From Armatimonadota bacterium (GTDB lineage Bacteria > Armatimonadota > HRBIN16): DNA of 64,000 nt. Made by a program: the position numbers and the translations under genes. Location: the NCBI GenBank assembly GCA_026003195.1, contig BPGU01000001.1, forward strand, positions 605,398 through 669,397, in the 5' to 3' direction. A model generated the notes under the pieces. It searched no databases. It saw nothing but the letters and a program-made list of their open reading frames with translations, and was not told where the DNA came from. This document shows positions 46,335 through 62,414 of the stretch, piece after piece; positions within the stretch are counted from its first letter, which is position 1, and every line of letters starts with the position of its first letter.

Positions 46335-46363
46335 ATAATATCGGTATCTCGCAGTTTTGTCAA
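46335..46363 (-). promoter_or_regulatory. Strong sigma-70 promoter of the MutL-family gene
   Basis: On the minus strand TTGACA (46358-46363), 17-base spacer, TATTAT (46335-46340). It marks host DNA up to at least 46363, 60 bases from the phage recombinase start codon. Confidence 0.8.
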
Positions 46364-46422
46364 GCAGGGAGGAAGGAAAGAAAAAGAGTAGAATAAAATA
46401 TACTCAAATGAGGTGATGCTTT

Positions 46423-47655
46423 ATGAGATATTGGGGAGTGGACATAGGGAAAGAAGTGATTGTCGGTGTAGCCAGAGATGAGACTGGGCAGATTGTTGCC
46501 AGGCATACGGCAAAAAACGATGCGGACTTAGCCAAAAAGATAGACCCTGAAGATACTGTGGCGTGCGAATGGACAGGCGGGCGAGGCAGAATCTTTCTGG
46601 AAACGCTCTGGTCAAAAGGCGCCAGACATCTCTACATCTACAAAGGCAACCTCAGGGCTGACCGTCAGCATCTCGGCTACATGCGCAAAGGTGACTTGCC
46701 CGACGCTGAAACCATCTCGTATGCAGTATGGGCGTCTTTTCAGCCGAACATACCGTTTCGTCCAAACGCGCTGATGAATTACCTCGACATGCGAGAGGTG
46801 TATGAACTGCGCGTAGATCTGGGCGTTGCAGAACAATACACAAAGGAGAGACTGCGCTGGCAGCAAAGGCGAGAGGCATTATTGGCAAAGGGGCTTCCTG
46901 CCACTGTCTATGCCACAACACTCTCCTTCCTCCAGCAGCAAGAAGAGGAATCATGGAACACCCTTCGCCGGAAGTGCATGCAAAACGAAAGCGTCGTGGA
47001 AGTCATGCGCATCCTGCTCCACTTTTTCCCGCGAGGCGACAGAGCGGTGATCAAGTTAGCTCTCCATATTGCACCGTTGGAGAGGTTTAGTTCTGAATCT
47101 GCCTTGCAGCGTTACTGTGGAGTGTTGCCTGAAAGCGCTGAAAGCGGTGGGCACATCATCTATCGCAAACGCGGGCGCAGTGGGAGCAAGCAAGCACGGG
47201 TAGCCATGTATCAGCTGCTGATGCCCAGCATTACCATCGGCAACGGGGTAAACGGAAGCAGGCGCGGGAAGTGGCGCGATTATTACGACAAGTTAAGGCG
47301 CAGGCTATCAGATGGTGAGGCATGGATACGCATGATGTATCGCTTACTGCATCTGGTTTGGAAAGCTTACAGACGAGGTGAATACCAGCAACCACTACCG
47401 GCAGAGCGCAGGCAGTCGAGACACGCACGCAAACTGGCACTTCAGCAAGAGGTTTTAGAAAAGGTACTTCAGGGTTACGACGACAACTCCATAGCGCGTT
47501 TACTTGGCATAAGCCCAAGCACCATCACTAAGTGGAAGCGCAGAGACGACGTTTTCTGGAAGAGATACGAAGCTGCCAAGAAGGCATTCCTTGAAGAGCA
47601 AATGCGCAATCCAAATACCACACAGGAGGCATCACAGGATGCACACCATCAGTGA
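46423..47655 (+). CDS. IS110-like DEDD recombinase with C-terminal helix-turn-helix
   Basis: A 410-residue recombinase. The RuvC-like DEDD residues are visible: Asp7 (GVDIGKE), Glu49 (CEWTGG), Asp91 and Asp94 (KGDLPDAE), followed by a coiled-coil stretch (125-200) and the Transposase_20-type domain with LQRYCGVLPESAESGG, Ser241 being the expected conserved serine. Unlike typical IS110 proteins it ends with a helix-turn-helix (about residues 345-372, DNSIARLLGISPSTITKWKR) and a charged tail. The gene overlaps the next phage gene by 17 bases. It may act as the phage's integrase. A passenger insertion sequence is the alternative. Confidence 0.8.
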   Translation: MRYWGVDIGKEVIVGVARDETGQIVARHTAKNDADLAKKIDPEDTVACEWTGGRGRIFLETLWSKGARHLYIYKGNLRADRQHLGYMRKGDLPDAETISYAVWASFQPNIPFRPNALMNYLDMREVYELRVDLGVAEQYTKERLRWQQRREALLAKGLPATVYATTLSFLQQQEEESWNTLRRKCMQNESVVEVMRILLHFFPRGDRAVIKLALHIAPLERFSSESALQRYCGVLPESAESGGHIIYRKRGRSGSKQARVAMYQLLMPSITIGNGVNGSRRGKWRDYYDKLRRRLSDGEAWIRMMYRLLHLVWKAYRRGEYQQPLPAERRQSRHARKLALQQEVLEKVLQGYDDNSIARLLGISPSTITKWKRRDDVFWKRYEAAKKAFLEEQMRNPNTTQEASQDAHHQ

Positions 47656-47842
47656 CATGCTCCGCGACGCGCTGTATTACCTCACGGAGAGCGAGATGAA
47701 CGAAGGCTTGCGTGCAAAGCAACTGCGAGCAGAAGCAATGCACCACCTCACCGGCGCGCTCAAGGAAGTGATAATGGTAGAGAACGCGCTGGCGAAGATA
47801 ATCCACGAGCAAGGGGAGGCGCGCTATGAAGGCACCGATTGA
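47639..47842 (+). CDS. Small phage early protein, unknown
   Basis: A 67-residue helical, charged protein (MHTISDMLRDALYYLTESE). GGAGG lies nine bases before ATG, inside the recombinase gene's end, so translation follows the recombinase. No family recognised. Confidence 0.55.
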   Translation: MHTISDMLRDALYYLTESEMNEGLRAKQLRAEAMHHLTGALKEVIMVENALAKIIHEQGEARYEGTD

Positions 47843-48005
47843 ATGGTTTTGCTGGGACTACGAAGACGACCAGGTTCGGGATGCTCTGCGGATGATAGAA
47901 GAGCGTCGGCGATTGGAACAGCACAACGGCTACCTGCTGCGGCTCCTCTGCTGGATGCTGGCAGCAACATGGTTCGTAGCCATACTCCATAGCCTCTGGA
48001 GGTGA
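47826..48005 (+). CDS. Small single-pass membrane protein of phage early region
   Basis: A 59-residue protein, not long enough to appear in many gene lists: an acidic/aromatic N-terminus (IEWFCWDYEDD), charged middle and one membrane helix near the end (residues 38-57). GGGGAGG precedes the ATG at six bases and the start overlaps the previous gene by 17 bases. Confidence 0.55.
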   Translation: MKAPIEWFCWDYEDDQVRDALRMIEERRRLEQHNGYLLRLLCWMLAATWFVAILHSLWR

Positions 48006-48008
48006 GAG

Positions 48009-48278
48009 ATGATGCGTTCAGACTGGCAGCTGGAACTGGGCATAGACGAGAAAGAGTTGCACATTATGTCTCCCTGGTTTGCGCTGGCGGAGTTCAACGG
48101 TTGGCGAAAACCATACCCGGCAGTCGACCTGCGCGGGCTACACAGGGAAGAAGCGCTCGCCCGAATGCACCAGATAGCCGACTACTACACCCTCAGAGGC
48201 TGGCGCGTTGTCTGGATATGGAAGGAGGCACAAGATGAAGTACACGACCGAGCAGAAGATTCAGGCATTACGCCGTGA
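48009..48278 (+). CDS. Phage early protein with Smr-like start motif
   Basis: An 89-residue protein. The stretch AVDLRGLHREEALARM resembles the DLHG-like beginning of Smr nuclease domains, but the HGKG motif that should follow is absent, so the resemblance may be chance. GGAGGTGAGAG before ATG. It overlaps the next gene by 44 bases. Confidence 0.5.
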   Translation: MMRSDWQLELGIDEKELHIMSPWFALAEFNGWRKPYPAVDLRGLHREEALARMHQIADYYTLRGWRVVWIWKEAQDEVHDRAEDSGITP

Positions 48279-49410
48279 AATCGCCTTGAGAAAGAACGTC
48301 TACAAAAGGCGGATAGCAGAAGGCAAGATGACGGAGGAACAGGCGCAGAATGAAATAGCCATCATGGAAGAGATTCTGGAAGAATACATCCGCCTCACCT
48401 CTTCATGCGCGGTAGACATAGAATCTCGTCTGGACGCCTTTCTCACGCAGCAAGTGGAAAAGGCACGGGAGCGGGGTTCTGCCTGCGTTGTCCCCAGTGC
48501 CCAGATACTGGAAGCAACCGGATGCGCCCCACGCCAGTTAGGCGCACTCATGCAGGCAAGAGGTTGGGTGCGCGTCTGGATATCGGCGGGCACGCGCGGC
48601 TGGATGTTACCCGTCAGCCGTGTATCCGAATCAGACTCCAACAGTAAACCGATTACTGTTGATGCTGCTGTTAACAGTAAACCGATTACTGTTGATGCTG
48701 CTGTTAACAGTAAACCTGTTACTGTTGATGCTGCTGTTAACAGTAAACCGATTACTGTTGATGATTCCGAATCAGGCTCCAACAGTAAACCCGTTACTGT
48801 TGAAGCACCGGCTAACAGTAAAAGTGTTACTGTTGAATCTCCGGCTAACAGTAAACCCGTTACTGTTGATGCGGGCATTAACAGTAAAAGCGTTACTGTT
48901 GATGATTCCGAATCAGGCTCCAACAGTAAAGCCGTAACTGTGGAGTGTGACCACAGGCTCACCGCCTTGCGCGACCTTGCCCAGCGCATGGACGTGTATT
49001 TGTGGAAACACCTCGCACTGCAGATGGTAGAAAAGATTGAGCAAGAGCGTGTATCGCTCTGTGCTCGCTGCACGCTGGTGAAGAACACCGTGCTCTCCAC
49101 GCGCTACGGCTTCACGGCAGAAGACATGCGCAAAGCGGTTTTGGACGTGCTGGCAAAGAAACCGGAGATGACCCCCCCCACCGAAGACATCTTTGCCCTC
49201 ATTCCTGAAGAGGTGCGCGCGGAATCAGATGTCGTGGTGGAGATTCTGAATCTTCTCGGTGGCGTCGCTTCGCAGGCACAGTTAGAGAAGTCACTGCGCA
49301 AGCGTGGTTACAAACAGCCCTACGACGTTCTCCTGCGTGTCAAGCCCGTGCTTTCGGATTTCGTCAACGTCACTCGCGGGAGTGATGGCGAAGTTTGGAA
49401 GTTGAGATAA
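48235..49410 (+). CDS. Candidate phage replication initiator with in-gene iteron array
   Basis: A 391-residue protein. N-terminus: coiled-coil (1-60) and a winged helix-turn-helix-like region (about 85-128, VPSAQILEATGCAPRQLGAL). Residues 136-236 are a low-complexity linker of 11-residue units (NSKPITVDAAV) coded by nine palindromic DNA repeats. C-terminus (240-391): helices and a second winged-helix-like domain (LGGVASQAQLEKSLRKRG). The layout (DNA-binding N-terminus, linker with DNA repeats, C-terminal domain) is like lambda O, whose gene contains the origin. AAGGAGG sets the ATG at 48235. Function is an inference; no helicase loader was found nearby. Confidence 0.6.
   Translation: MKYTTEQKIQALRREIALRKNVYKRRIAEGKMTEEQAQNEIAIMEEILEEYIRLTSSCAVDIESRLDAFLTQQVEKARERGSACVVPSAQILEATGCAPRQLGALMQARGWVRVWISAGTRGWMLPVSRVSESDSNSKPITVDAAVNSKPITVDAAVNSKPVTVDAAVNSKPITVDDSESGSNSKPVTVEAPANSKSVTVESPANSKPVTVDAGINSKSVTVDDSESGSNSKAVTVECDHRLTALRDLAQRMDVYLWKHLALQMVEKIEQERVSLCARCTLVKNTVLSTRYGFTAEDMRKAVLDVLAKKPEMTPPTEDIFALIPEEVRAESDVVVEILNLLGGVASQAQLEKSLRKRGYKQPYDVLLRVKPVLSDFVNVTRGSDGEVWKLR
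48640..48942 (+). repeat. Nine 21-bp palindromic iterons (AACAGTAA-N5-TTACTGTT) inside a coding region
   Basis: Copies begin at 48640, 48673, 48706, 48739, 48781, 48814, 48847, 48880 and 48922. Spacing is 33 bases except two steps of 42 bases, which insert a DDSESGS-type unit. Arms are invariant in copies 1-8 while the five central bases vary; copy 9 has two changes in its right arm. The arms force T-ending codons (AGT, ATT/GTT, ACT, GTT) that are not needed for the protein, so DNA-level selection is likely. Confidence 0.9.
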
Positions 49411-49437
49411 GAAAATAACTGAGAGGGAGGTGGAAGG

Positions 49438-49716
49438 ATGAAAATCGTACAGATTGAAGAGCAAATTGACCTGCCACCAATTAACCCGCAACGGAGCGGG
49501 CATTCCGTCCGAAAATGGCAGGTGCAAACTGAAGACGGTTTGCCTGTTGTAAGCATCGAGGTTGAACAAGCGTGGAGCACTGGGTATTCTGTGTACGAGA
49601 AAGAGTACTACCTGCACGATTTTGGTGTTAGCGTGAAGCTTTCCATCAGGAACGGCACGAACGGCAGGAAGCAGATTTTAACGGTAACCCGGGGTGACAG
49701 AACAATTTACCTGTAG
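49438..49716 (+). CDS. Small hypothetical phage protein
   Basis: A 92-residue beta-rich protein with no recognised family. GGGAGGTGGAAGG before ATG. Confidence 0.5.
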   Translation: MKIVQIEEQIDLPPINPQRSGHSVRKWQVQTEDGLPVVSIEVEQAWSTGYSVYEKEYYLHDFGVSVKLSIRNGTNGRKQILTVTRGDRTIYL

Positions 49717-49742
49717 TTCTCACAACTCCAGAGGAGGTAAAC

Positions 49743-50015
49743 ATGGTAAAGTACGAACAACTAGGGACAGACGTTTTCTGTTCGTTCCAGATTGATGATG
49801 GCTCAATCTGTACCGGCGTGGTGCTCGCAGACCGACGGAGGTTCGGCGTCGAGCAAACGCTGATACTCCGTATTGGGGGAGAAAGAGGGGGCAGCGAATA
49901 CTTCCTTGTTACCAAAGACATCAACACGAAGGTTGAGCCTGTCTCTGAGGAGCAGGTAACACAGTTCCTGAACGAGTGCTACCCGGAGGAAATCAGCGAG
50001 ATAGTAAGGAGGTGA
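49743..50015 (+). CDS. Small hypothetical phage protein
   Basis: A 90-residue protein, beta strands then a short helical C-terminus (EEQVTQFLNECYPEE). AGAGGAGGTAAAC before ATG is an excellent ribosome site. No family recognised. Confidence 0.5.
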   Translation: MVKYEQLGTDVFCSFQIDDGSICTGVVLADRRRFGVEQTLILRIGGERGGSEYFLVTKDINTKVEPVSEEQVTQFLNECYPEEISEIVRR

Positions 50016-50110
50016 TGCCCCTTCCTCCTTTACAAAACTGGACAAAATTGAACAAGTTATCTTACAAAACGCTTCAGACGGCAACGTCTATCGGGGCGAT
50101 TTAGTAGACG

Positions 50111-50422
50111 ATGCTGAAACATTTGCTCCGAAACAACCCACCCTTCAGCGACTCGTTAGGCGAGCAGGTATTGCGTGAGTATATGCGCATCCACCGCGGG
50201 GCGGTGGATGCGCTGTGCCAGATGGGCTGTGACCGCGAAGACGTGGAGCAAGACCTGCGCATCCATCTCTGGAGGCAGTGGGAACGTTACGAGTCCGGCA
50301 GCATCAGTTTGCAGCAATGGCTCAGTTGGCGCATGCGTCACAAAATAAGGAGCATGTTGAGGAATGAGCAGAAACGCAGTCGAATTCGTACATGTCCTCT
50401 GGACATCGAAGACTCACAGTGA
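50111..50422 (+). CDS. Sigma-70 region 2-like phage protein
   Basis: A 103-residue helical protein. CDREDVEQDLRIHLWRQWERY-like text (split: DREDVEQDLRIHLW, then SISLQQWLSWRMRHKIRSML) matches the pattern of sigma-70 region 2 (acidic loop, W-x-x-R-M-R). No region 4 follows. Start codon lacks a clear ribosome site. It could drive late transcription or bind core polymerase, and sits just before terminase, where phage late regulators are often found. Confidence 0.5.
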   Translation: MLKHLLRNNPPFSDSLGEQVLREYMRIHRGAVDALCQMGCDREDVEQDLRIHLWRQWERYESGSISLQQWLSWRMRHKIRSMLRNEQKRSRIRTCPLDIEDSQ

Positions 50423-50681
50423 CGCAGCACGCCGTCTCGGCATCAGTCGCACCACCTTCTACAACCGCCTGCGTTCTCCGGCGGTACAGCGCATGATTGA
50501 GGAGATATCGCAGGCGCAGCAGGCACTGCTCACCCTGCGCGAGGCGGAGTTATACGACACGGCGTTACAATCCCTTGCCGACCTTGCCCAGCATGCAGAA
50601 GACCCTCAGGTGCGCATCGAGGCATGTCGCGAACTCATCAAGCATTGCAGGCTTCGGGATGTGTGGGAAATTAGTGAGTGA
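50364..50681 (+). CDS. Terminase small subunit
   Basis: A 105-residue protein with an N-terminal helix-turn-helix (SDAARRLGISRTTFYNRLRSPAVQ) and a helical remainder, the pattern of small terminase subunits that recognise pac/cos DNA. GAGGA lies just before the ATG; it overlaps the previous gene by 59 bases and terminase large by four (GTGA). Confidence 0.75.
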   Translation: MSRNAVEFVHVLWTSKTHSDAARRLGISRTTFYNRLRSPAVQRMIEEISQAQQALLTLREAELYDTALQSLADLAQHAEDPQVRIEACRELIKHCRLRDVWEISE

Positions 50682-51919
50682 ATCGGCGTCGTTTAACAAG
50701 GGAAGCCTTTTTACGCTGTGTAGGCGAATACCATTCTGGTCAGCTGCGGATATGGCAACAGCGAGGCGATGCGCGATTTACCATTCTGCGTTGTGGGCGA
50801 CGTTTCGGCAAGACATCCCTGTTAGCGCGAGAGCTCTTGTGGACGGTGCTCAGAGGGGGCAAAGCGTGGTGGATAGCGCCTCGCCACGCGCTGTGCCGTA
50901 TCGGCTTCAGTTACGTTGAAAAGTTGTCCTGCAATCTTCCCGTATCCATTCGGCAACGAATACGCTTCTGGCGCAGTGCTCCTTACCGCATTCGCTACGG
51001 GCGAGGCGAAGCCGAGTTTTACTCCACCTCCAACCCCGACAACTTGCAAGGTGAAGGCAACGACCTGGTGATTTTTGACGAGGCAGCGACCGAAGAGGAT
51101 GGGGATCTGATTGTAGACCAGTATATCCTTCCCACCTTGTTAGACCGTCACGGCAAGCTGATTATCGCCAGCACGCCCAAGGGCAGGAACTGGTTTGCCG
51201 AATGGTGCGCTCGCCCTGAGTTTGTAGAGTTAGTCGCCACCACCTACGACAACCCCCTCATAGACCGAGCCGACATCGACGCAATGCGTGAGCGCATGAC
51301 GGAGCAGGCGTTTCGCCAGGAGATTTTGGCGGAGATAGTGGAGGAGACTGGCAGGTATTGGGACGTACTGCCCGTTGCCAGCGACTGGGAAGTGACAGGC
51401 GAAGCAGAAGTGTGCGGAATAGACTGGGGCATAGCCAGTCCGTTCGCGGCGGTATGGCTGTTCCGCAGAGGCGAAGAGGTGCACGTCCTGCACGAGGTCT
51501 ACGGTTCTGGTATGGACGCCGACGTGCAGGCGAAGTTAATATTGCGCGGTCCGCGGGCGAAGCGATATGTATGCGACCCCTCCACGCCGGAGCACGTGTT
51601 GCGGGTATGGCACAACGCAGGCTTACATCCACAGCCTGGCTCGCGCGACAGGGTAGGCGGCTGGATGCTCTTGCGCATCATGATACGCGACGGTCACCTG
51701 CGCGTGCATCCACGCTGTTTCAACCTCTTACGCGAATTTGAAGAGGCGCAGGTGGACCCTCGCGCTCCCAGCGATATAGTGAATGACGACCACGCTCTGG
51801 ACGCTCTCCGCTACGCTATCATAGCCTTGCCTCCGTCGCGCAAGCAGAGGCAGATGAGCGTAGAGGAGTGGCTACGGGTTCGGGCGCGCAGGGAGTATCT
51901 CAGGAGAACGGGCTCATGA
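50678..51919 (+). CDS. Terminase large subunit
   Basis: A 413-residue packaging motor: Walker A CGRRFGKT (residues 39-46), Walker B LVIFDEAAT, a coupling motif (IIASTPKG), and the RNase-H nuclease domain with the first Asp in GIDWGIASP and a late acidic cluster in NDDHALDALRYAI. It pumps DNA into the prohead through the portal and cuts the concatemer. GTG start overlaps the small subunit stop. Confidence 0.92.
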   Translation: MNRRRLTREAFLRCVGEYHSGQLRIWQQRGDARFTILRCGRRFGKTSLLARELLWTVLRGGKAWWIAPRHALCRIGFSYVEKLSCNLPVSIRQRIRFWRSAPYRIRYGRGEAEFYSTSNPDNLQGEGNDLVIFDEAATEEDGDLIVDQYILPTLLDRHGKLIIASTPKGRNWFAEWCARPEFVELVATTYDNPLIDRADIDAMRERMTEQAFRQEILAEIVEETGRYWDVLPVASDWEVTGEAEVCGIDWGIASPFAAVWLFRRGEEVHVLHEVYGSGMDADVQAKLILRGPRAKRYVCDPSTPEHVLRVWHNAGLHPQPGSRDRVGGWMLLRIMIRDGHLRVHPRCFNLLREFEEAQVDPRAPSDIVNDDHALDALRYAIIALPPSRKQRQMSVEEWLRVRARREYLRRTGS

Positions 51920-52182
51920 CATTCACCTATCGCTGTTGGCAATGTGGATATTGGGACGCGGAGCATCCAATCGGCAAAGCGCCTTCGCGCATGGAATGTC
52001 CCCGTTGTGGGGCGATAAGCCTGCGGTGTTACAGCTCCTTTTTGTTCTCGGTGCGTCGTGGGCGCACGGACCTGGACGGTTCACATCTGCCCGAAACCCC
52101 TGGTGAGAAAGCCTACTGGCGGGAGCGTGCCGGAGTAGACGTAGACAGGATACAGGTGGCAGTAGATGGCTTTCGGCAATGA
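51916..52182 (+). CDS. Zinc-ribbon protein between terminase and portal
   Basis: An 88-residue protein with CWQC and CPRC pairs (16-20 residues apart) forming a FmdB-like zinc ribbon at the N-terminus and a charged tail. ATG overlaps the terminase stop by ATGA; its end overlaps the portal start by 17 bases. Function unknown. Confidence 0.65.
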   Translation: MTFTYRCWQCGYWDAEHPIGKAPSRMECPRCGAISLRCYSSFLFSVRRGRTDLDGSHLPETPGEKAYWRERAGVDVDRIQVAVDGFRQ

Positions 52183-53374
52183 ATACACCCGCGCGCTGCA
52201 ACAGGCGAAAGAACACCAGCGACTGTGGCGGCAGAAGATTCAGCGGCTGCGCGAGATACTGGCAGGGGTTCCTCGTGGTCAACAGTTATCCCTTAGTGTG
52301 GAAGAAACGCAAACTAACTATGCGCTACTCAACGTTACGCTCAAAGCATTTGCGCTCACGCGCAACATTCGCGGTACGCGAGTCATCTTTCACAACGCAC
52401 CACGCGAGATAGAGTATTGGTTCAACGATGATGTCAAGGGCGTGGCGGTACAGGATTTTCAGGACATGCTCAAAGACCGCTTCGGTTGCGGTATGGGCGT
52501 GCTGGGTATTGGGAGTGATGGCGGTTCGTTTATCCAGTATATAGACCCGTTGGATGTCTGGTGGGACCCCGATTTTGGCTATCGGTCGCCTTCATGGGTC
52601 ATCCGACGCATCCGTCGCGCTCGCAGGGTGGTGTATGAGTACTGGGATACAAACACCCATGCTTTTTTTAATGAAAGCGAAGGCGTGCTGCATGAAGAAG
52701 AGAACCCTCTGCGTATCATTCCGATACGGTTTCTGGAAAACATCTACAGCGTGCCGGGCATTGATTTCCCCAGGAGCGACACCGAGCAGGTCATAGCTCC
52801 ACAGAATCTGATCAGCGAGGCGTTACGGTCTCTGATAGACCAGGCGCGCCGTGGTGTTGGTTTTTTCGAGTATCAAATATCCGCTGTCGATCCTCTGGAG
52901 ATAGAGAAACTGAAAGAGCCTGGCGAGCAATTCGTCGGCACCGAAACCGGCAATGCCATTACCCCCAAAATCACTCCACCACCATCTCCGGAGTGGCTCA
53001 ACATCATCACGATAGCAAAGAACGACATCGACGCACTGAGTGGTGTTTCGGAGTATCTGCGTGGCGCGATGCCCGTTGCCAACAACCTGAAATTTGCGAC
53101 GCAGGTACTGGCGGTGATTGGTTCGCAAAACATGCGCATAGATGCGGACTGGGTGCCCGTCAAGGAGTTGTTGGAGTGGGCTGCATACGTGTGGCTCTCA
53201 GTTGCCCATGTCAACCGGGAACGACACAGAGTGAACGATATAGTTATTGACGCCAGCACGATAGACATATCGCAGGTCAGCGTGAAATGTGAGGAGGATG
53301 AGAATGCGTTTTCCGTTTCTTCGGTCGGAATCACTCCCGACGACATTGCCAGCACCTTCGCCGGAGGCTCCTGA
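52166..53374 (+). CDS. Portal protein
   Basis: A 402-residue protein placed right after terminase, with a portal-like pattern: early helical/Trp region (YNLQ-type start), FGCGMGVLGIGSDGGSF, IDPLDVWWDPDFG, then helical segments and a long C-terminal part with NLKFATQVLAVIG. Portals form the DNA entry ring. No signal or membrane segment. The assignment rests on position and on the PLDVWWDP segment; sequence identity cannot be checked here. Confidence 0.75.
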   Translation: MAFGNEYTRALQQAKEHQRLWRQKIQRLREILAGVPRGQQLSLSVEETQTNYALLNVTLKAFALTRNIRGTRVIFHNAPREIEYWFNDDVKGVAVQDFQDMLKDRFGCGMGVLGIGSDGGSFIQYIDPLDVWWDPDFGYRSPSWVIRRIRRARRVVYEYWDTNTHAFFNESEGVLHEEENPLRIIPIRFLENIYSVPGIDFPRSDTEQVIAPQNLISEALRSLIDQARRGVGFFEYQISAVDPLEIEKLKEPGEQFVGTETGNAITPKITPPPSPEWLNIITIAKNDIDALSGVSEYLRGAMPVANNLKFATQVLAVIGSQNMRIDADWVPVKELLEWAAYVWLSVAHVNRERHRVNDIVIDASTIDISQVSVKCEEDENAFSVSSVGITPDDIASTFAGGS

Positions 53375-53726
53375 CCAGCCCGACGCCGATGAGCGCGCTC
53401 AGGCGGTTGAGGCTCTAATTGCACAGATAGAGTCGGCAGCGTCTGAAGGACCTGAGGCAGTTGCAGAGCTTTTCGAGACGATGGCTGCGTACATCCGGCT
53501 GGCAATGATGACGCCCGAACAATGGGCTGAACTCTTTCAGCGTTCGCTGCAAGAGGTGACACAGCAGGAGAAGCCTGAGCCGGTTACAGAGAAAGAGGAA
53601 CAGTCAGCACCACAGGAACCACAGCAGGAAATGAAGACTGAATCCGTTCGCGAGCGAATCTTCTCCCCTCGCTCCGCGTCCAGCCGCACGCGTGGACAAA
53701 GCCTGCGTGAGATCCTGAATCTGTAA
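53304..53726 (+). CDS. Acidic protein, possible capsid scaffold
   Basis: A 140-residue protein: proline/alanine-rich, acidic middle (VEALIAQIESAASEG...), Gln/Glu-rich linker and basic C-terminus (RSASSRTRGQSLREIL). Position between portal and capsid, acidity and predicted helix fit a scaffolding protein. GAGGAGG before ATG; it overlaps the end of the portal gene by 71 bases. Confidence 0.5.
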   Translation: MRFPFLRSESLPTTLPAPSPEAPDQPDADERAQAVEALIAQIESAASEGPEAVAELFETMAAYIRLAMMTPEQWAELFQRSLQEVTQQEKPEPVTEKEEQSAPQEPQQEMKTESVRERIFSPRSASSRTRGQSLREILNL

Positions 53727-53738
53727 GGAGGATAGAGA

Positions 53739-54665
53739 ATGGCAATCAACTTTGACAGCAGTCTTTACGCAACCGCCGTAGGTCAATGGCTATCGGAGAA
53801 CTTCGAACCGCAGTTCGCGCGCCTGCGTTCAGTGTTTGCCAAACTGCAGACGGACGGCGCCATCAAGGTAGGTGGAGCCTACCTGCTCGCTCCTGTCAGC
53901 AAAGACAAAAACCCGAGCGTGCAGGGAGTGGCGAACTTCGCATCGGCGATGTCCATCCCCGCAGACCAGGGCGTCGGCGCGCAGTATAACTGGTCCTGGT
54001 ATGAAGGATTGACCGCCATCAACAAAGCGGAGGAGATGGCTACCGAAGGCGAAGCCGCCATGGTGGACCTGCTCGAATCCCGTTTGAACGAGACCATTGC
54101 GAGTTTTGTGGAGGTGGTCAACACCGACCTGTTCTCGACCACCGACGCCTCCCAGAGCAAAATCGCTGGGCTGCCCTATGCTCTGGACACCACCGGCTCC
54201 TTCGGCGGTATCGACCGTAGCACCAACACCTGGTGGCAGGCGCAAAACGAGAGTGCGGTAGGAGCCGTCACGCTTGCCAAAATCAACCGCATGTATAACA
54301 AATGCCAGAGCAGAGGAGGCACCCCACCGTCCCTGATTGTCATGCCAGAAGACATCTTCGGCAGCTACGAATCGCTTTTGCAGGCATCCCAGCAGTTTGT
54401 CAAGGACGGCAAACTGGCAGATCTGGGATTTACCGCATACCTGCACAAAGGCGCCACCGTGCTGTTTGACAACGCTTGCCCTGCTGGCACGGTGTTGTAT
54501 GTCAACACACGGCACACTTACCTGGTAGCAATGAGCAAACAGCCGGACGCCGTTCCTGTGCAGTTCCCTGACCGTCCGGTCAAAGGCTATTTGCACACCT
54601 GGGCGATTGCTCTGGTGAGCAGGCGGTTGAACGCCAACGGAAGGCAAACAGGCGTCACACCGTAA
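53739..54665 (+). CDS. Major capsid protein (HK97-like fold, by position)
   Basis: A 308-residue protein after the scaffold-like gene, with AAGGAGG before ATG. Features seen: N-terminal helix (SSLYATAVGQWLSENFEP), GVQGVANFASAM, ESRLNETIASFVEVVNTDLF, a P-domain-like LIVMPEDIFGSYESLL and C-terminal TWAIALVSRR. These fit phage major capsids of short-tailed types. Copies would form the procapsid with the portal. Confidence 0.8.
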   Translation: MAINFDSSLYATAVGQWLSENFEPQFARLRSVFAKLQTDGAIKVGGAYLLAPVSKDKNPSVQGVANFASAMSIPADQGVGAQYNWSWYEGLTAINKAEEMATEGEAAMVDLLESRLNETIASFVEVVNTDLFSTTDASQSKIAGLPYALDTTGSFGGIDRSTNTWWQAQNESAVGAVTLAKINRMYNKCQSRGGTPPSLIVMPEDIFGSYESLLQASQQFVKDGKLADLGFTAYLHKGATVLFDNACPAGTVLYVNTRHTYLVAMSKQPDAVPVQFPDRPVKGYLHTWAIALVSRRLNANGRQTGVTP

Positions 54666-55261
54666 TGGCACGCTATGCGCATTACGACCGCGATTACAGG
54701 GAGTTACAGTTTCGGGCGGGCATCGGGCGGTTACAGGTGGCGGTCAACGATGTGGGAGAGATAACCGAGGTATCCATTACGCCCACCGCGCCGGTCTCAC
54801 CCGATGCCCGCCCGCACATTGCCGACGTGGTCTTGTCGCCGTCTCTTGCGGTCAAAGGGGACGGACGCTGGATAGGCTGGGAATGGTTCTGCGATACCGG
54901 CACCGATTACGTCGTCACATACAAACGCGACGGGGTGCAGCAACAGATAAACGTCTCAGCCTTGCCTGCTCCTCCCGATGGTATCGGTAGCGCGGAAAGC
55001 GTGTTTTCTCCCTTGCATACGGGGGTGTTTATAGAACGCCGTCGCGTTCGCCTGGAAGGGGCATATCCATCGGGGGGCTTCCATCTGCAAGATGTAGATG
55101 ATGAATCTACGGCGCTGGTCAGCGCCATGTGCGATGACTACTACGTCGGCTTCATACAAGAGAGGCTGAGGCTATACAACAAGAGCAACTATAACGAGGT
55201 GAGCGCAGGGCAGAACATTAGCACAGATGTTTTGCTGCTGTTTGTACACCACCAACTGTGA
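54665..55261 (+). CDS. Phage structural protein, unknown
   Basis: A 198-residue beta-rich protein starting at ATG that overlaps the capsid stop by one base. No family recognised. Position suggests head decoration or head-tail connection. Confidence 0.5.
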   Translation: MARYAHYDRDYRELQFRAGIGRLQVAVNDVGEITEVSITPTAPVSPDARPHIADVVLSPSLAVKGDGRWIGWEWFCDTGTDYVVTYKRDGVQQQINVSALPAPPDGIGSAESVFSPLHTGVFIERRRVRLEGAYPSGGFHLQDVDDESTALVSAMCDDYYVGFIQERLRLYNKSNYNEVSAGQNISTDVLLLFVHHQL

Positions 55262-55275
55262 AGGAGGGGACCACC

Positions 55276-56301
55276 ATGCCATTTCCTGACCGTATCATAG
55301 AACCTGCAACACAAGTGGTGGATTTTCTATCAGACGACTTCAACTCCACGCTGGAGCAGTGGGATGTCGTTTCTGGTAGCCCTGCTGTTGCCAGCAGCCA
55401 GCTGACCATCGCCAGCGGGACGGTACTGCTCAGCAAGAAGTCGTTCGAGCCCCCGTGTCTGCTGGAAGTGGTGGAGACGATGACCGCCCGTGCGTCCACC
55501 GACAGCTTCCGCTTCGGCTTCTACATGGACGACAACAACCTGGTGGAGTGGGGTGCGACGAGCACTGCCAGCAGCAACATGGATGCACGGATGAGCGCAG
55601 GTGGTGTGGCGAGCGACCAGACAGGTATCAACGTCGGTGCGTCCAACAACTCCTACCGGCTTGCCAGCATCTACGTCGGTCTCGGTGAAACGGTGTGGGC
55701 GTATCGCAACATCAACAGCCAGGTAGTCCGAAACGAAGTGTACCGCTACATTGAGCACGGCATCCCCGAAGGTCCGTTCCGCATTCGGCTGGCAGGTCTT
55801 GCTGGCACGTCTACGTTGAAGGTGCATCGGGTAACGGCGTATCAGCTGGCGGACGTCATTGTGCCAGGTGCGCTGGGGCATCACGTGGACGGGATGGCTA
55901 TCCCTGTGCGGTTGACCAACACGCCGTTCATGGCTACGCCGAGCAATGCGCAGTTAAGCATCGCGCAGGTCTCTTCGTCGGATACGTTCTCGTCGCTGGC
56001 AGCAGGCAGTGTCGGCACAGGTTCCAGCCGTTACGGTTATCTGGAGCAGTGCCACGTGCAGGCGTATGTGACAGGTGACCAGCCCTTCACGGCGTGGCTG
56101 GAAGCGCAGGTGGACGGCAGCAACTGGCAGGTCATCTGGTATGGCACTGCTACCGACGCCACGACGGATGCGGTGCAGCGTTACTATGCCGTCTCGCCCA
56201 TCATGCAGCTATTGGGCAGCCGAAACTTCCGCGTGAAGGTGAAGAACAACGGCGCATCGGCAGGTAACTTCAGGGCGAACATCTGCTTCACTTCCCTGTA
56301 G
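55276..56301 (+). CDS. Phage structural protein with lectin-like N-terminal domain
   Basis: A 341-residue protein. Residues 15-200 read like a concanavalin/LamG sandwich (DFNSTLEQWDVVSG, FRFGFYMDDNNLVEWG), and the C-terminal part is beta-rich with FTAWLEAQVDGSNW. AAGGAGGGG precedes ATG at 55276. A receptor-binding or decoration role is possible. Confidence 0.5.
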   Translation: MPFPDRIIEPATQVVDFLSDDFNSTLEQWDVVSGSPAVASSQLTIASGTVLLSKKSFEPPCLLEVVETMTARASTDSFRFGFYMDDNNLVEWGATSTASSNMDARMSAGGVASDQTGINVGASNNSYRLASIYVGLGETVWAYRNINSQVVRNEVYRYIEHGIPEGPFRIRLAGLAGTSTLKVHRVTAYQLADVIVPGALGHHVDGMAIPVRLTNTPFMATPSNAQLSIAQVSSSDTFSSLAAGSVGTGSSRYGYLEQCHVQAYVTGDQPFTAWLEAQVDGSNWQVIWYGTATDATTDAVQRYYAVSPIMQLLGSRNFRVKVKNNGASAGNFRANICFTSL

Positions 56302-56311
56302 GAGGGCTGAG

Positions 56312-56485
56312 ATGAAGAAGTTACTGAAGCCGTTCATTATCCGATGGCTGGACGAACGGGCGTTGAGGTTACCGTATTCTGTTCGGCAGCGGATTGCCGA
56401 CAGGTTGAAGGTGGACACCGCACTGGTGTTCGCCGTGGAAGAAGCGATTCGTGAACACATCATCCAACAGGTGAAGGAGTGGTGA
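56312..56485 (+). CDS. Small helical phage protein
   Basis: A 57-residue basic/helical protein (MKKLLKPFIIRWLDERALRL). GGAGGGCTGAG before ATG. The next gene starts two bases after its stop. Function unknown. Confidence 0.5.
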   Translation: MKKLLKPFIIRWLDERALRLPYSVRQRIADRLKVDTALVFAVEEAIREHIIQQVKEW

Positions 56486-56487
56486 GG

Positions 56488-56691
56488 ATGCGAGCGTACG
56501 TGAAGGCTGTGGGTACGAACATCACGCTGGTCAACATCGACACCGGTGAGAAGTTCAACGTCAGTCCGACGGCGATTCAGAAGCTGTTCGGTGAAGAGCT
56601 GAAGGAAGGCGAAGTGTGGGAGTTCCGCTGCAGCAGGCTGGACGACATCGCGGAGACCTTCCGCAAGTGGCAGGCAGTCTCGCAAGCGTAG
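56488..56691 (+). CDS. Small phage protein
   Basis: A 67-residue beta-rich protein (MRAYVKAVGTNITLV, EGEVWEFRCSRLDDIA). AAGGAG lies eight bases upstream. Lies before the holin gene; function unknown. Confidence 0.5.
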   Translation: MRAYVKAVGTNITLVNIDTGEKFNVSPTAIQKLFGEELKEGEVWEFRCSRLDDIAETFRKWQAVSQA

Positions 56692-56700
56692 GTGGTAAGG

Positions 56701-57093
56701 ATGCAATCGTGGACATGGAAGTCCATAGCAGCTTCTGTGATTGCAATGTTCACAGCAGCACTGGGTGGTTGGGATGCGCTGGCGCAGGCGATGATTGCCT
56801 GTATAGCGTTGGACGTAGTAGCAGGATTGATACGAGCTGGCGCAGAGTGCAAGCTGAACAGTTCGGTGATGCGCAAGGGGCTGTACCGCAAGGGCGCATA
56901 CTTCGTGGCTGTGCTTCTTGCTGTGCTGCTGGACAGGTCACTCTTCCACGCCGCGCCCGCCTGCAGGACACTCGTCATCAGCTACATCATCGTGAACGAG
57001 TCGCTATCAATACTGGAGCACTTAGCCGCGCTTGGTGTGCCCATCCCAGAACAGGTCAAGGACATGCTTCTGAAGATACGAGAGAAGCAGTGA
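56701..57093 (+). CDS. Phage holin (holin_4-like, TcdE/BhlA group)
   Basis: A 130-residue protein with two to three membrane segments (about 12-35, 68-88, 95-115). The pattern ALDVVAGLIRAG, then RKGLYRKGAYF, IVNESLSILEHLAALGVPIPEQV is characteristic of phage holin families that release the lysin. Start set at 56701; an earlier GTG is nine bases upstream. It is followed by the amidase. Confidence 0.78.
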   Translation: MQSWTWKSIAASVIAMFTAALGGWDALAQAMIACIALDVVAGLIRAGAECKLNSSVMRKGLYRKGAYFVAVLLAVLLDRSLFHAAPACRTLVISYIIVNESLSILEHLAALGVPIPEQVKDMLLKIREKQ

Positions 57094-57099
57094 TGCGGT

Positions 57100-57216
57100 G
57101 TGGACGACTTGCTGTTGACCATTACCGTCAAGATGGTTCTCTCCTTCATCGGCGGCTGGTTACTCGGATTCGTGGCAGGATTGACGTTCAATGTTCAAGA
57201 CGGTAGTCAAGAATAG
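57100..57216 (+). CDS. Possible second small membrane protein of lysis cassette
   Basis: A 38-residue frame with GTG start, one membrane helix (residues 11-29, KMVLSFIGGWLLGFVAGLTF) between holin and amidase; its last 26 bases overlap the amidase gene. Ribosome site is weak. Could be a spanin-like or holin-associated protein, or not expressed. Confidence 0.32.
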   Translation: MDDLLLTITVKMVLSFIGGWLLGFVAGLTFNVQDGSQE

Positions 57217-57646
57217 CCCAAACCATTCCGATCGTGGTGGAGTAACGGTAGATACCATCATGGTTCACTCCACCGGCGGTTCTCTACGTGGCAGTTTGGA
57301 GTGGTTGTGCAATCCCAACAGCAAGGTCTCTGCCCATTACCTGATTGCACGTGATGGTACGGTATACAAGCTGGTTCCTACCGGCAGGGCGGCGTGGCAT
57401 GCGGGTAAGTGTAGAGTGCCTGATGCGAATCGCAGGTCAATAGGCATCGAGATGGAGCAACTCTACGGTGATGAGTGGACGGAAGCACAGCGAGAGACTC
57501 TGCTTCGTCTCATCGCCGTGCTGAAGCGTGCAGTACCTTCCATCAAGTATCTCGTCGGGCATCGGGAATGGAACAGTAGCAAGATTGATCCGTATCGGAT
57601 GGATATGGACGAACTCAGGAAGCAGACTGGACTGGAGAAGCTATGA
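57191..57646 (+). CDS. N-acetylmuramoyl-L-alanine amidase (endolysin)
   Basis: A 151-residue single-domain amidase (Amidase_2/T7 lysozyme-like). His26 (MVHSTGG), AHYLIARDG, GRAAWHAGK, IEMEQLYG and VGHREW with KIDP provide the zinc site and catalytic residues. It cuts the MurNAc-L-Ala bond of peptidoglycan after holin opens the membrane. No cell-wall-binding domain. Confidence 0.87.
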   Translation: MFKTVVKNSPNHSDRGGVTVDTIMVHSTGGSLRGSLEWLCNPNSKVSAHYLIARDGTVYKLVPTGRAAWHAGKCRVPDANRRSIGIEMEQLYGDEWTEAQRETLLRLIAVLKRAVPSIKYLVGHREWNSSKIDPYRMDMDELRKQTGLEKL

Positions 57647-58386
57647 CCACAGCAAGACGGTTCGGGCGCATCATCAAGAGTGGCGACATCTTGTTCGGTG
57701 ATGCCGATTATCCGTGTACGGTAAGCGTTGGTGGCATCAGACTGACGCGGCAGGGTACGGACGATTATGTGCGGTTCCGCGTCCCCGATACCAGCTGCCC
57801 AGCACTACCAGAGCCGAACACCCCGCTGGACGATGGGCAGGCGGATGTGGCGGAGCCGAACCGGTGGAATATCTACGGTCAACCGGATACGCAGAACAAG
57901 TGGAAGCTGCTGGAGAGCCGTGACAAGATTGAGCTGAACTACACCGTCTATCCAGGCGACTTCGTGATTGAAGTGGTAAGCAGCTACATCAGTAAGACGG
58001 GCACCAACACGGGCAGCCCGGGCTACTTGACGTTTGATGGTATCTGCTTGACATTCACTGTGGGAAACTACGTGTATGGCATTGGCGTCGGCTGGGCTGT
58101 GCATCATGGCGTCGTTGAGGTGCCCTGGGGTGGTTCCGAAGGGCGCGCTATCTGGTGGTTTATCGCCACTACCAATGGTGGAAAACTCGCCACTGGTGAG
58201 TACATGATACCAGCTTCTCAAACCGATGTGCGCTATCGTGTGCAGCGCAGTGGTAGCCAGTTGCGGTTCGGCTGGCTGAATAGTAACGGGCAGTGGAATT
58301 ACAGCAACTACATGAGCGTCGGAAGCGGAGAAATCAGCGTAACGTTTGAAGGTGTTCGCATTACGGACGGTGGGCCACAGGTATGA
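57643..58386 (+). CDS. Phage structural protein with beta-sandwich character
   Basis: A 247-residue beta-rich protein overlapping the amidase by ATGA. Text such as VRYRVQRSGSQLRFGWLNSN resembles concanavalin-like or fibre proteins (SQLRF, NGQW). Likely virion surface or tail-tip protein. Confidence 0.5.
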   Translation: MTTARRFGRIIKSGDILFGDADYPCTVSVGGIRLTRQGTDDYVRFRVPDTSCPALPEPNTPLDDGQADVAEPNRWNIYGQPDTQNKWKLLESRDKIELNYTVYPGDFVIEVVSSYISKTGTNTGSPGYLTFDGICLTFTVGNYVYGIGVGWAVHHGVVEVPWGGSEGRAIWWFIATTNGGKLATGEYMIPASQTDVRYRVQRSGSQLRFGWLNSNGQWNYSNYMSVGSGEISVTFEGVRITDGGPQV

Positions 58387-58901
58387 AGACTTACAGCTGG
58401 CATAGTGCAGGTGGTTCTCTCAGCGATACATACGATGTGGTCGCGCAGGTCACGAACATCACTACCGTTAGCGGTGCGCCAGCCAGCGTAACCGTCACCA
58501 CTCCGGTTATGGACATGGGTAAGAGCATGAACTGCACTGTGCAGCAAGTGCCCAGCACAGGCACTCTGGAGTGGCGGGCGAGCGATACGCCTTTTACCGA
58601 GAACGGTAGCAGCCCACCCTGGAACAATCCAGACGGGAACTACCGCTACTGGCAGGCGCGAGTGACGTGGACAGACGCGAATCAGCTGTTGGAGCGGGTG
58701 GAGTTCGTTTCCGCAGAGCCGATAATAGCCCGCGTACGGTACTCAGCCCTGGGCTGGCTGATATATCACCGGAACGTATCTGCACCCTATCGCCCTGTAG
58801 AGAAGCCCGTTGGCGGAGTACCGTACAGCATAGAACAACAGGGCGATTCAGTGCAGTGGCAGGGCGATGCGGCTGAATACATCACCACGAGGGACGCCTG
58901 A
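58383..58901 (+). CDS. Phage structural protein, unknown
   Basis: A 172-residue beta-rich protein (Thr/Val-rich strands), starting in ATGA overlap with the previous gene. No family recognised; probably a tail or fibre accessory protein. Confidence 0.45.
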   Translation: MKTYSWHSAGGSLSDTYDVVAQVTNITTVSGAPASVTVTTPVMDMGKSMNCTVQQVPSTGTLEWRASDTPFTENGSSPPWNNPDGNYRYWQARVTWTDANQLLERVEFVSAEPIIARVRYSALGWLIYHRNVSAPYRPVEKPVGGVPYSIEQQGDSVQWQGDAAEYITTRDA

Positions 58902-59482
58902 TGGCATGGAGCGAAACGTATATCAATCAGATTATCCAGCACCTGGTCAGGCACGACGCCGATCCGGCAGAGCTACAATCTGACTACGTGCGCATCGGCT
59001 TCGAGCGTCTCGCACTAGAAGCGCCCGTCTTCGAACTTACGAACAACATCAACATAGTTGCCCTGCAGCGCACCTACGATCTCGGCAACATACACCTTGT
59101 GACCGAAGTCAAATTAGACGGTCAGCAGATACCCCGTCTGGGCAAAGAAAACTATCCCTCTCAATCCTGGTATCAGCGTGGGCAGCTTCTGGTGCTGAAC
59201 TGGGAGCCGGGCAGCGCAGGAGTATTGACCGTCACGGGCTTTGGCGTTCCCGCCACCATAGACGGTCTCACCACACAGCCGGAGAAGTTACTTCAGCGGG
59301 CGGTAGCCTTAGCCGCTGCTTCTGAGTTTTTAAAAACGTATGGCGACGCCCGCGCCCTGGCGCGCGCGGGCGTCTACGAGCAGATGTTCGCTCGCATTGT
59401 CCAGCATCTCAAACGACGATACAACACCCCGCTGGAGCGAACAGATAGACAACGAGCGAGCAGGGAGATACCGCTAATATGA
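58901..59482 (+). CDS. Putative head-tail adaptor (short-tailed phage type)
   Basis: A 193-residue protein with helical N-terminus (SETYINQIIQHLVRHD), a beta middle and a helical end. It precedes a large tail-like protein, the place of the gp4/gp11-type adaptors of P22/T7. ATG overlaps the previous stop. Assignment by position only. Confidence 0.45.
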   Translation: MAWSETYINQIIQHLVRHDADPAELQSDYVRIGFERLALEAPVFELTNNINIVALQRTYDLGNIHLVTEVKLDGQQIPRLGKENYPSQSWYQRGQLLVLNWEPGSAGVLTVTGFGVPATIDGLTTQPEKLLQRAVALAAASEFLKTYGDARALARAGVYEQMFARIVQHLKRRYNTPLERTDRQRASREIPLI

Positions 59483-61347
59483 AAGAACTCCTTCTGCGCG
59501 GTCACCGTCCGGGCGATGTGTATCCGTCCACAGCAGTGGATGTGGATGTCGCCGGCAGTGCAATAGTCCCGCGTCCATCCGCGCAGTTGCTCTTTGCTTC
59601 ACCGGTTGGCAGCGTCCTCGGTGCATATCACGATGCACCCACCGGCAAATATCTGATGGTAACGCGCAGTGGCACCACCAATTACCTGTACTTGCGCAGT
59701 GGCACCACCAATGTGCAACTGGCATCATGGACAGAGGCAGTCGCCGATGGCGTTATCTCCTTCGTGCCACTCGCCGACCGCGTAGTGGTAGTCTGTCGTT
59801 CGCGCATCTTCCTGGTAGACACTACCGGCGACACAGCCATACAGGTCACCAAACCATCTGCGCCGTCCGGCGTCACCGCCACCGCGAAGCAAGAATACAT
59901 CACCCTGTCCGGTTCACTCGCTTCCCAATCGGATCGCGCCACAGTGACTTACAATGCACCCTACTTCACTGTAGACGACAACACCACAGACAACATTGCG
60001 GGCGCATACCAGCAGCTGTACGCATCCGGTCAGGTAGATGTATCCCATTGCGATGACGCATGGCTTCGGGTGGAATCCTACGACACTGAGTTGCTCTCCC
60101 CGTCTACAGTGTCGCCCATTCAGGACACGCGCACAGGCAATCAGGACTTCTACGCGGGGCTGCCTACAGATGTGAAAGTTAGAGGTTGGGTGCAGATGCC
60201 CCTGACGCAGGCAAAACTGATTGGCGTGCATTTCTTTGTGCAAATGGGCTCGGTCACAGTACACGAGCGTCTATACTTCACCCCGCGCACACGCCCGGAG
60301 AAATATCGTGTCGTCAGCGTGCAGAACGGTTTTGAGAGCGACTACCAGGAGGTAACGGTCAGCATCAACACGCTGAACTGTCCCACTCCCGGAGGCTACG
60401 TAGTGGACTTTACCAATCTGCCATCAGGCACGTGGCGAATCTACAGGCAAGATTCCGCGGGCGACTGGCGTCTGGTTGCCGAAGGCACGGGCAGCACATA
60501 TACTGACCGTAAACGCGAAGAGGAGCTCGGCGAGAAATGGTTCGAACCCGTCTATCCTTACGCAGGCGGCATTGGCGCAGTGGGGTGGCAGAATCGCATT
60601 GTGCTTAACGACGGGGCAGGAAAGTTATACATATCGCAACCGGGCGAATATGCATGGCGAGACGACAGCGACATCCTTCAACTCCCTTCCCGATTGCTCG
60701 GCATGGCAACCATCGGAGGCAGGCTCTACCTGAACCACAGCGGAGCCTGGTGGGAACTGATAGGCTCGCCGGGCGCATGGATGCAGCGCACAGTATTGCC
60801 GGGCACATGCCCTAAGCCGGCACTGGGCATCTACCAGTCCAACAGCGCGCTGGTTGCGGAAGGCAGGCTCTATCTCCCCATAGCCGGGCAGTGGACAGAG
60901 GTAGACCTGCAAGATACCCACCTGTGGGCAACAGACGTTTATCAGGGCATGGCAGCATCAGGCACATCGTGTGTATACGTCTTGCAGCGTGGCAGATGGG
61001 TCAAGTGGAACGAGAACGCCTTAGCGATATGGTATACGAATCAAAGATATGAGATAGCCAAAAGCGACGGTGTTTACGCGCTCAACGGCTCGCGGGTGAG
61101 CACAGGGCAAATCTTAGAAACCGTCCCCATGCTTCAGCGGGTGAATACCGTGCGCATCTACGTCGACGGTGTCGGTAGCATAAACGCATCGCTCAACGGC
61201 AGCACACCAGAAACATGGACATTGCCGTTCTACCGCGACCGCTGGCGCGTAGAGGATTGGGAGTGGGCACTGACGCTATCGCTATCCAGCAACGCGCAGA
61301 TTCGTCGCATCCTGATAGACGCGGAGGTATCCAGCAGCTATGGCTAA
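59479..61347 (+). CDS. Large tail-like protein (tubular/stabilisation type)
   Basis: A 622-residue beta-rich protein, overlapping the adaptor by ATGA. Contains a fibronectin-like linker (SAPSGVTATAKQ), repeated beta-propeller-like segments (GRLYLNHSGAWWELIGSPG, GRLYLPIAGQWTEV) and a 19-base direct DNA repeat at 59664-59682 and 59694-59712 coding RSGTTN twice. Such proteins form the tail tube or DNA plug of podoviruses (P22 gp10, T7 gp12). The assignment is by length, position and beta-rich text. Confidence 0.5.
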   Translation: MKELLLRGHRPGDVYPSTAVDVDVAGSAIVPRPSAQLLFASPVGSVLGAYHDAPTGKYLMVTRSGTTNYLYLRSGTTNVQLASWTEAVADGVISFVPLADRVVVVCRSRIFLVDTTGDTAIQVTKPSAPSGVTATAKQEYITLSGSLASQSDRATVTYNAPYFTVDDNTTDNIAGAYQQLYASGQVDVSHCDDAWLRVESYDTELLSPSTVSPIQDTRTGNQDFYAGLPTDVKVRGWVQMPLTQAKLIGVHFFVQMGSVTVHERLYFTPRTRPEKYRVVSVQNGFESDYQEVTVSINTLNCPTPGGYVVDFTNLPSGTWRIYRQDSAGDWRLVAEGTGSTYTDRKREEELGEKWFEPVYPYAGGIGAVGWQNRIVLNDGAGKLYISQPGEYAWRDDSDILQLPSRLLGMATIGGRLYLNHSGAWWELIGSPGAWMQRTVLPGTCPKPALGIYQSNSALVAEGRLYLPIAGQWTEVDLQDTHLWATDVYQGMAASGTSCVYVLQRGRWVKWNENALAIWYTNQRYEIAKSDGVYALNGSRVSTGQILETVPMLQRVNTVRIYVDGVGSINASLNGSTPETWTLPFYRDRWRVEDWEWALTLSLSSNAQIRRILIDAEVSSSYG

Positions 61348-61540
61348 AGCATGGATTCAGAAGGCAATTAAACGTCCGGGCGCATTTCGTGAAAAAGCAA
61401 AGCGGGCTGGTATGAGCACACAGTCCTACGCACGAAAAGTTATACGTTCGCCACGTCGCTATGACGTACGTACAGTGAGGCAGGCTCATTTGGCGATTAC
61501 TCTTATGGGCATGAGACGAAATAGGAGGAGAAAGCGATGA
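61340..61540 (+). CDS. Small basic phage protein
   Basis: A 66-residue highly basic protein (AWIQKAIKRPGAFREKAKR) overlapping the previous gene by eight bases. The WIQKAIK-x-PGA start is seen in many phage proteins of unknown role. Confidence 0.6.
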   Translation: MAKAWIQKAIKRPGAFREKAKRAGMSTQSYARKVIRSPRRYDVRTVRQAHLAITLMGMRRNRRRKR

Positions 61541-61686
61541 TTCTTTTGGACACGGAGCCGGAGCGAGACGCACTGAACAACATATTGCAGCTGTTGTGGA
61601 GACAGATACAGCAGCTGCAAAAGCGCGTGGAGGAGCTGGAGGAATGGCGAATTGGGGTCCGTTCGAATTCGTCCGCAGGGCGGTAA
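61537..61686 (+). CDS. Small coiled-coil phage protein
   Basis: A 49-residue protein with a heptad-rich helix (LNNILQLLWRQIQQLQKRVEEL), ATGA overlap with the previous stop and GGAGGAGAAAGCG before ATG. Overlaps the next gene by 43 bases. Confidence 0.5.
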   Translation: MILLDTEPERDALNNILQLLWRQIQQLQKRVEELEEWRIGVRSNSSAGR

Positions 61687-62405: not shown

Positions 62406-62414
62406 GAGGCAAAC

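Follow-up and report, generated by a model that had tools for sequence, protein, structure and literature searches.

By which enzyme, and guided by what, does a tailed phage enter its host chromosome when its first gene encodes an IS110-type recombinase? This question is raised by a prophage of an Armatimonadota bacterium, the left part of which lies in the 64,000-nucleotide stretch of DNA analysed here (the window; positions 605398-669397 of contig C1 of the source genome, G000). Temperate tailed phages are known to choose their attachment sites via protein integrases. The original prediction, made from the window alone, had proposed that a DEDD recombinase of the IS110 family takes the place of an integrase in this phage. 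Our analysis supports that proposal and adds a second component, a predicted structured RNA at the opposite end of the element. On the sequence evidence, this RNA very probably guides the element's own DEDD recombinase in integration. Positions beyond the window are given for locus L002, in which coordinate x corresponds to C1 position 666000+x.

Boundaries of the prophage

The prophage occupies C1:651740-672070 (20,331 bp), from window position 46343 to L002:6070, 2.7 kb beyond the right edge of the window. Its ends can be placed with an accuracy of 4 bp (TATC) because a related species of the same genus (G002, contig C9) has an uninterrupted site, in which the left and right flanks align as contiguous sequence (CAGAATCCAACGGTAATAATATC/CCAATATTGTGCGG). 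At the occupied site of G000, the left junction has the sequence ...AATAATATC-GGTATCTCGCAG... and the right junction ...CTTCTTAAAC-TATCCCAATATGG.... The boundary features are:

46339..46342, no strand: left junction TATC, from the alignment with the empty site on G002:C9
46343..46422, no strand: left end (80 bp), starting with GGTATC, the right-donor sequence proposed to be read by the guide RNA
46343..64000, no strand: part of the prophage within the window
L002:6071-6074: right junction TATC

TATC is common to both junctions and is present once in the empty site, which gives a short core and no long target duplication; the core within TATC is probably TC. An empty site in a relative, the check proposed with the original prediction, was thus found, and it ends exactly at both junctions. 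G002 lacks the entire 20.3 kb at this place, not a 1.5-kb insertion sequence (IS). The comparison shows that a 20.3-kb unit with the recombinase at one end and the guide RNA at the other was inserted as a single piece. With the left end at 46342/46343, the recombinase gene starts only 80 bp from the boundary, which confirms the predicted position of this gene at the phage-host boundary. Attachment at a tRNA gene was considered and rejected, as no tRNA lies near the junctions.

The ends also hold an 11-bp inverted pair, CTGCTTGACAA in the right end and TTGTCAAGCAG in the left end (46357-46367), 76 and 14 bp from the core, respectively. We give it little weight because the two copies may be promoter -35 boxes and not recombinase sites.

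The recombinase and the absence of a tyrosine or serine integrase

46423..47655, plus strand: IS110-family DEDD recombinase (410 amino acids), proposed phage integrase with a C-terminal helix-turn-helix (HTH) extension
47639..47842, plus strand: next phage gene (67 amino acids), overlapping the recombinase gene by 17 bp

The open reading frame (ORF) 46423-47655 is uninterrupted and contains the residues that had been predicted for it: D7, E49, D91 and D94 of the DEDD set, and the conserved S241 within a G233--P236----S241-G242 motif. The protein passes the Pfam cut-off for Transposase_20 (PF02371; 32.8 bits, cut-off 21.3) and falls just short of that for DEDD_Tnp_IS110 (PF01548; 28.3 bits, cut-off 29, E = 1.8e-6). 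In PHROGs, residues 3-324 match an IS110-like transposase family (E = 3.3e-16). The additional C-terminal HTH was recovered as a separate Pfam match at residues ~339-376. By these profiles the protein is a very divergent member of the IS110 (DEDD) family. A search of solved structures with its sequence returned no match, and the single-sequence AlphaFold2 model (predicted local distance difference test score, pLDDT, 37.6) was unusable and is not interpreted.

The next gene starts with an ATG at 47639 and the recombinase gene ends at 47655; therefore the two overlap by exactly the 17 bases reported before. An AGGAGG stands within the recombinase gene, 9 bases upstream of this ATG. Immediately before the recombinase start, an imperfect palindrome (GAGTAGAATAAAATATACTC, window 46388-46407) is a candidate operator.

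Whole-genome profile searches found neither a tyrosine integrase (PF00589) nor a serine integrase (PF00239) in C1:651740-672070, in line with the reading of the window alone, and the 2.7 kb of the element beyond the right window edge hold no integrase gene. All the matches in G000, 14 to tyrosine recombinases and one to serine recombinases, lie elsewhere. The Transposase_20 profile hits no gene of G000 other than the one at 46423-47655, and none in six congeners. The recombinase gene itself was not found elsewhere. The two findings that, according to the original prediction, would have pointed to a passenger IS, an integrase gene past the right edge and the recombinase gene at unrelated sites, were thus both absent.

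A proposed guide RNA in the right end

The last phage ORF is followed by 460 bp of noncoding DNA, after which the host Nuo-like operon begins at C1:672211 (L002:6211). Noncoding DNA was searched for matches to target and donor. The two longest target matches, one for each strand sense, are both in the right end, 27 nt from each other: TCCCAATA (the right target, from the core) and GATATTATTA (complementary to the left target, up to the core). On the minus strand, they give UAAUAAUAUC as the left guide and UAUUGGGA as the right one, each with the core at its 3' end. The same noncoding DNA holds a two-loop structured RNA resembling the IS110 bridge RNA, with the following proposed parts:

L002 about 5872 to 5619, minus strand: proposed bridge RNA
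L002:5855-5807, minus strand: 5' stem-loop
L002:5806-5745, minus strand: target-binding loop
L002:5799-5790, minus strand: left target guide UAAUAAUAUC, 10 nt
L002:5762-5755, minus strand: right target guide UAUUGGGA, 8 nt
L002:5744 to about 5660, minus strand: donor-binding loop
L002:5722-5716, minus strand: possible left donor guide AAACGUC, weak
L002:5683-5677, minus strand: right donor guide AUACCGA, 7 nt
L002:5619-5642, minus strand: terminator-like stem

The framework of the first loop, UGUGGCU-U-UAU-UGG-GAAGUCCG, is repeated a few dozen bases on in the second as UGUGGCU-C-UAU-ACC-GAAGUCCG. The aligned loops read UGUGGCUyUAUnnnGAAGUCCG, in which nnn is UGG (target CCA) or ACC (donor GGT). 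UGG is complementary to the CCA in the target; ACC is complementary to the GGT in TCGGTAT, at the phage end, and the second loop is therefore taken as the donor loop. The right donor guide, a 7-nt match to the left end of the phage, stands at the homologous position of this loop.

The RNA is more stable than its dinucleotide shuffles (z = -4.86), none of 200 being as stable. We infer the open-loop picture and do not take it from folding, because the minimum-energy fold calculated without constraints has parts of both target guides paired to one another. By the geometry of its guides, the RNA is likely antisense to the recombinase gene. It has no match in Rfam. A DNA search of the guide-RNA region against 151 genomes and scans for the two-loop motif yielded no second copy, and therefore neither a covariation test nor an RNA model could be made.

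Specificity of the guides

Guides paired in the required geometry were scored, the actual target obtaining 18 (10 + 8). No host position among 91,910 scores above 17, and one of 40,000 composition-permuted targets reaches 18. The guide location is the best-scoring place across the entire element. The 16-mer spelled by the guides, TAATAATATCCCAATA, was searched in ten genomes of the genus with one mismatch allowed. Four congeners have exactly one copy each, invariably at this locus, and the 16-mer occurs nowhere else in the ten; it is absent from G000 because the site is occupied.

IS4321, of the IS1111 family, served as a positive control for the same finder. Its best solution (score 14) lies on the transposase strand in right-then-left order, one point above the runner-up (13). 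This agrees with the published top-then-bottom order of IS1111 guides on the transposase strand (PMC11187229).

Phage genes of the element

By its gene content the element is a prophage with SU10-like podovirus genes, of which the recombinase gene is the first. The assigned genes are:

50364-50681, plus strand: terminase small-subunit-like gene
50678-51919, plus strand: terminase large subunit (phrog_2, E = 1.6e-40)
52166-53374, plus strand: SU10-like portal (weak match, 0.015)
within 52166..54665, plus strand: scaffold-like ORF between the portal and capsid genes
53739-54665, plus strand: major capsid protein (phrog_9953, E = 1.2e-29, and SU10_MCP)
56692..57646, plus strand: lysis genes, holin and N-acetylmuramoyl-L-alanine amidase
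58901..59482, plus strand: SU10 adaptor (head-tail) protein

The terminase large subunit, the portal (weakly matched) and the HK97-type capsid protein are hallmarks of Caudoviricetes, and all three genes are in the element. Phage-like ORFs run past the window to C1:671610, the last being a small sigma-region-4-like gene. This gene (L002:5374-5610, C1:671374-671610) and a separate gene for a sigma region-2-like protein (window 50111-50422) possibly encode a split phage sigma factor. The phage gene at window 48235-49410 encodes tandem peptide repeats of the NSKPITVDAAV type. Defence-system profiles gave weak matches only.

Proposed integration and alternative explanations

Upon infection or excision the phage genome would be circular, its right end, with the guide RNA gene and a promoter, abutting its left end, with 80 bp and the recombinase gene. 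The RNA and recombinase genes would be adjacent in this circle, though 19 kb apart in the prophage, because the circle joins the right and left ends. The target loop would pair with TAATAATATC / TCCCAATA, where a MutL/GlmL-like gene of the host has its promoter region, and the donor loop with TCGGTAT at the phage end. The enzyme would exchange strands at the common core (TC within TATC). The boundaries of the element, its genes, the lack of a second recombinase and the guide matches are observed in the sequences, whereas expression and strand of the RNA, the assignment of its loops, catalysis, the circle and present activity are inferred.

Several observations weigh against this proposal. The two NCBIfam equivalog models for IS110 score 57.4 bits (140 needed) and 44.4 bits (180 needed); the recombinase is far under these cut-offs and therefore a distant family member, not an equivalog. 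The match of the left donor guide, just AAAC..TC, is weak. An RNA antisense to the recombinase would set the element apart from the IS110 and IS1111 elements described so far, and the sole candidate promoter for it, a mediocre TTGACA-17-TAGTTT, spans the circle junction. Finally, the case is a single one, and covariation analysis would need a closer homologue.

The element may have been integrated by the guided recombinase and now be a defective remnant, which is compatible with the proposed integration. It has only 20 kb, many genes without assignment and no recognised replication genes. We hold decay to be possible but rather unlikely, since the packaging, capsid, adaptor and lysis genes, the recombinase gene and both ends are intact; the element may still be active.

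It is also conceivable that the recombinase is the integrase, with its guide RNA on the recombinase strand, as in IS1111, and a mirrored guide geometry. The described IS110 and IS1111 RNAs are on the transposase strand (PMC11187229, PMC11208160), the location in the right end is IS1111-like, and the plus strand folds stably too (z = -3.5). However, the IS621 and IS4321 guides have a 3' core, and here only the minus strand does so, scoring 18 against 6 on the recombinase strand. The minus-strand order of stem-loop, target loop, donor loop and terminator also fits IS621, and we regard a recombinase-strand RNA as improbable.

It is very unlikely that a host recombinase such as XerCD performed the integration and that the DEDD enzyme acts on phage DNA as a Piv-like invertase or a RuvC-like resolvase. 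The IS110-family protein Piv is indeed an invertase (PMC11187229), and XerCD of the host is used by some filamentous phages, according to work cited in PMC11209303. The junction here, however, is TATC in a promoter, and what the guides match is a chromosomal target and the end of the phage rather than an invertible segment.

Least credible, and already largely refuted, is a passenger IS that landed at one end of a prophage whose original, different integration enzyme has since been lost: IS110-type passengers do occur inside phage records (e.g. IS4321-like genes), but the empty site lacks the whole element, the guide RNA and the recombinase gene stand at opposite ends, the guides read the outer junctions of the prophage, the recombinase gene translationally overlaps the next phage gene, and no other IS110-type gene was found in G000 or six congeners.

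Comparison with known systems

Like the IS621/IS110 group (PMC11208160), the integration system proposed here combines a DEDD and serine recombinase with a two-loop RNA carrying left and right target guides and candidate donor guides. The IS621 guides divide the strands between them, the left target guide binding the bottom and the right guide the top strand, and each includes the core (PMC11208160). The prophage shares the core dinucleotide in both guides, the left-target guide as the first one, the absence of a long target duplication and the order of RNA parts. It differs from the IS110 group, in which the RNA lies in the left end on the transposase strand, by an RNA in the right end, on the minus strand by guide geometry, by the 19 kb of phage genes between recombinase gene and RNA, by the C-terminal HTH extension and by its very divergent protein.

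The short left end, the long right end with the RNA and the 11-bp inverted pair near the ends resemble IS1111/seekRNA elements (PMC11187229). In contrast to IS1111, whose repeats (11-13 bp) lie 7 and 3 bp from the ends, those of the prophage are 14 and 76 bp from the core; its guides, read on the antisense strand, run bottom-then-top, with that for the left target before that for the right, and its recombinase has 410 residues versus 330-350. Simple membership in IS1111 was rejected, as repeats and guide order do not fit. In our view, the recombinase is best filed as a distant IS110-family enzyme, belonging to neither a standard IS110-group nor an IS1111-group element, and as the integrase of a podovirus-like prophage.

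The original prediction considered an IS110-type phage integrase to be new. This holds in part: IS110-type genes, proposed as integrases, have already been described at one end of integrated filamentous phage genomes, namely those of Neisseria Nf, Thermus phiOH16/Zuza (PMC11437467) and Acinetobacter Af1 (PMC11209303), and because of them the novelty is confined to the tailed phage and the guide RNA. Those phages are single-stranded-DNA inoviruses of 6-8 kb, whereas the present phage has terminase, portal and SU10-like capsid genes. No guide RNA of IS110-type filamentous phages, no tailed phage with an IS110-type integrase and no phage bridge RNA were found in the open-access papers searched. 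Integration at a single site, at the end of the phage genome, is shared with the tyrosine and serine integrases of temperate tailed phages; unlike the guide RNA proposed here, these pick the target by protein-DNA recognition.

No close relatives of the recombinase were found in IMG/VR, INPHARED or GTDB genome contigs. Two ordinary IS110-like genes in 290 other genomes of the phylum match it in part (27-29% identity), and plasmids gave one weak match. Scans of IMG/VR with the terminase, capsid, sigma-like, 759-amino-acid and portal proteins yielded nothing useful. Two prophage contigs, G230:C47 and G027:C66, share only a distant capsid gene with this phage and carry a tyrosine and a serine recombinase, respectively, 12-14 kb from it.

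If the proposal is true, the guide RNA makes the attachment site rewritable by few base changes, bridge recombination moves a natural cargo of 20 kb, and the arrangement of RNA and enzyme is one undescribed for IS110 or IS1111. With the site, guides, ends and empty locus all in hand, the case is directly testable.

Proposed promoters at the junctions

L002:5988-6016, plus strand: right-end promoter TTGACA-17-TATAGT with extended TG, strong and outward

The insertion lies in the promoter spacer of the leftward host MutL/GlmL-like gene. A TTGACT-17-TATTAT promoter is present in G002 and in the rebuilt empty site of G000, and the region is recognisable in the aligned congeners. The left-end sequence TTGTCAAGCAG is an outward TTGACA -35 box. 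It stands 17 bp from the host -10 box, and the host promoter therefore appears rebuilt: the split promoter appears to be restored by the TTGACA of the phage. In the circle the same TTGACA would have a TAGTTT as its partner beyond the junction, a possible promoter of the guide RNA, and the right-end promoter would read into the recombinase gene.

A further reading of these elements is tentative, and we consider it plausible but on balance doubtful: an antisense bridge RNA would serve a tailed phage as a programmable reader of its attachment site, coupled to a junction-dependent promoter switch. In the circle, the left-end TTGACA with the right-end -10 box would drive the guide RNA, and the right-end promoter would drive the recombinase. 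Integration would part both promoters from these genes while TTGACA rebuilds the host promoter, so that lysogeny would be self-limiting and harmless to the target gene.

In the prophage, the right-end promoter faces the host Nuo-like operon (from L002:6211) and may raise its expression. Three TTGAC repeats with 10 bp spacing (L002:5953-5975), just upstream of this promoter, are a possible site for the recombinase HTH or for a regulator.

Surroundings

A CRISPR-like locus (L003, C1:686000-702400) with several cas-like genes and repeats translating to YEPTYKGLK lies some 15-30 kb right of the prophage. Within the window, ARAGORN predicts a tRNA-Sec (anticodon TCA) at 19071-19170 on the minus strand.
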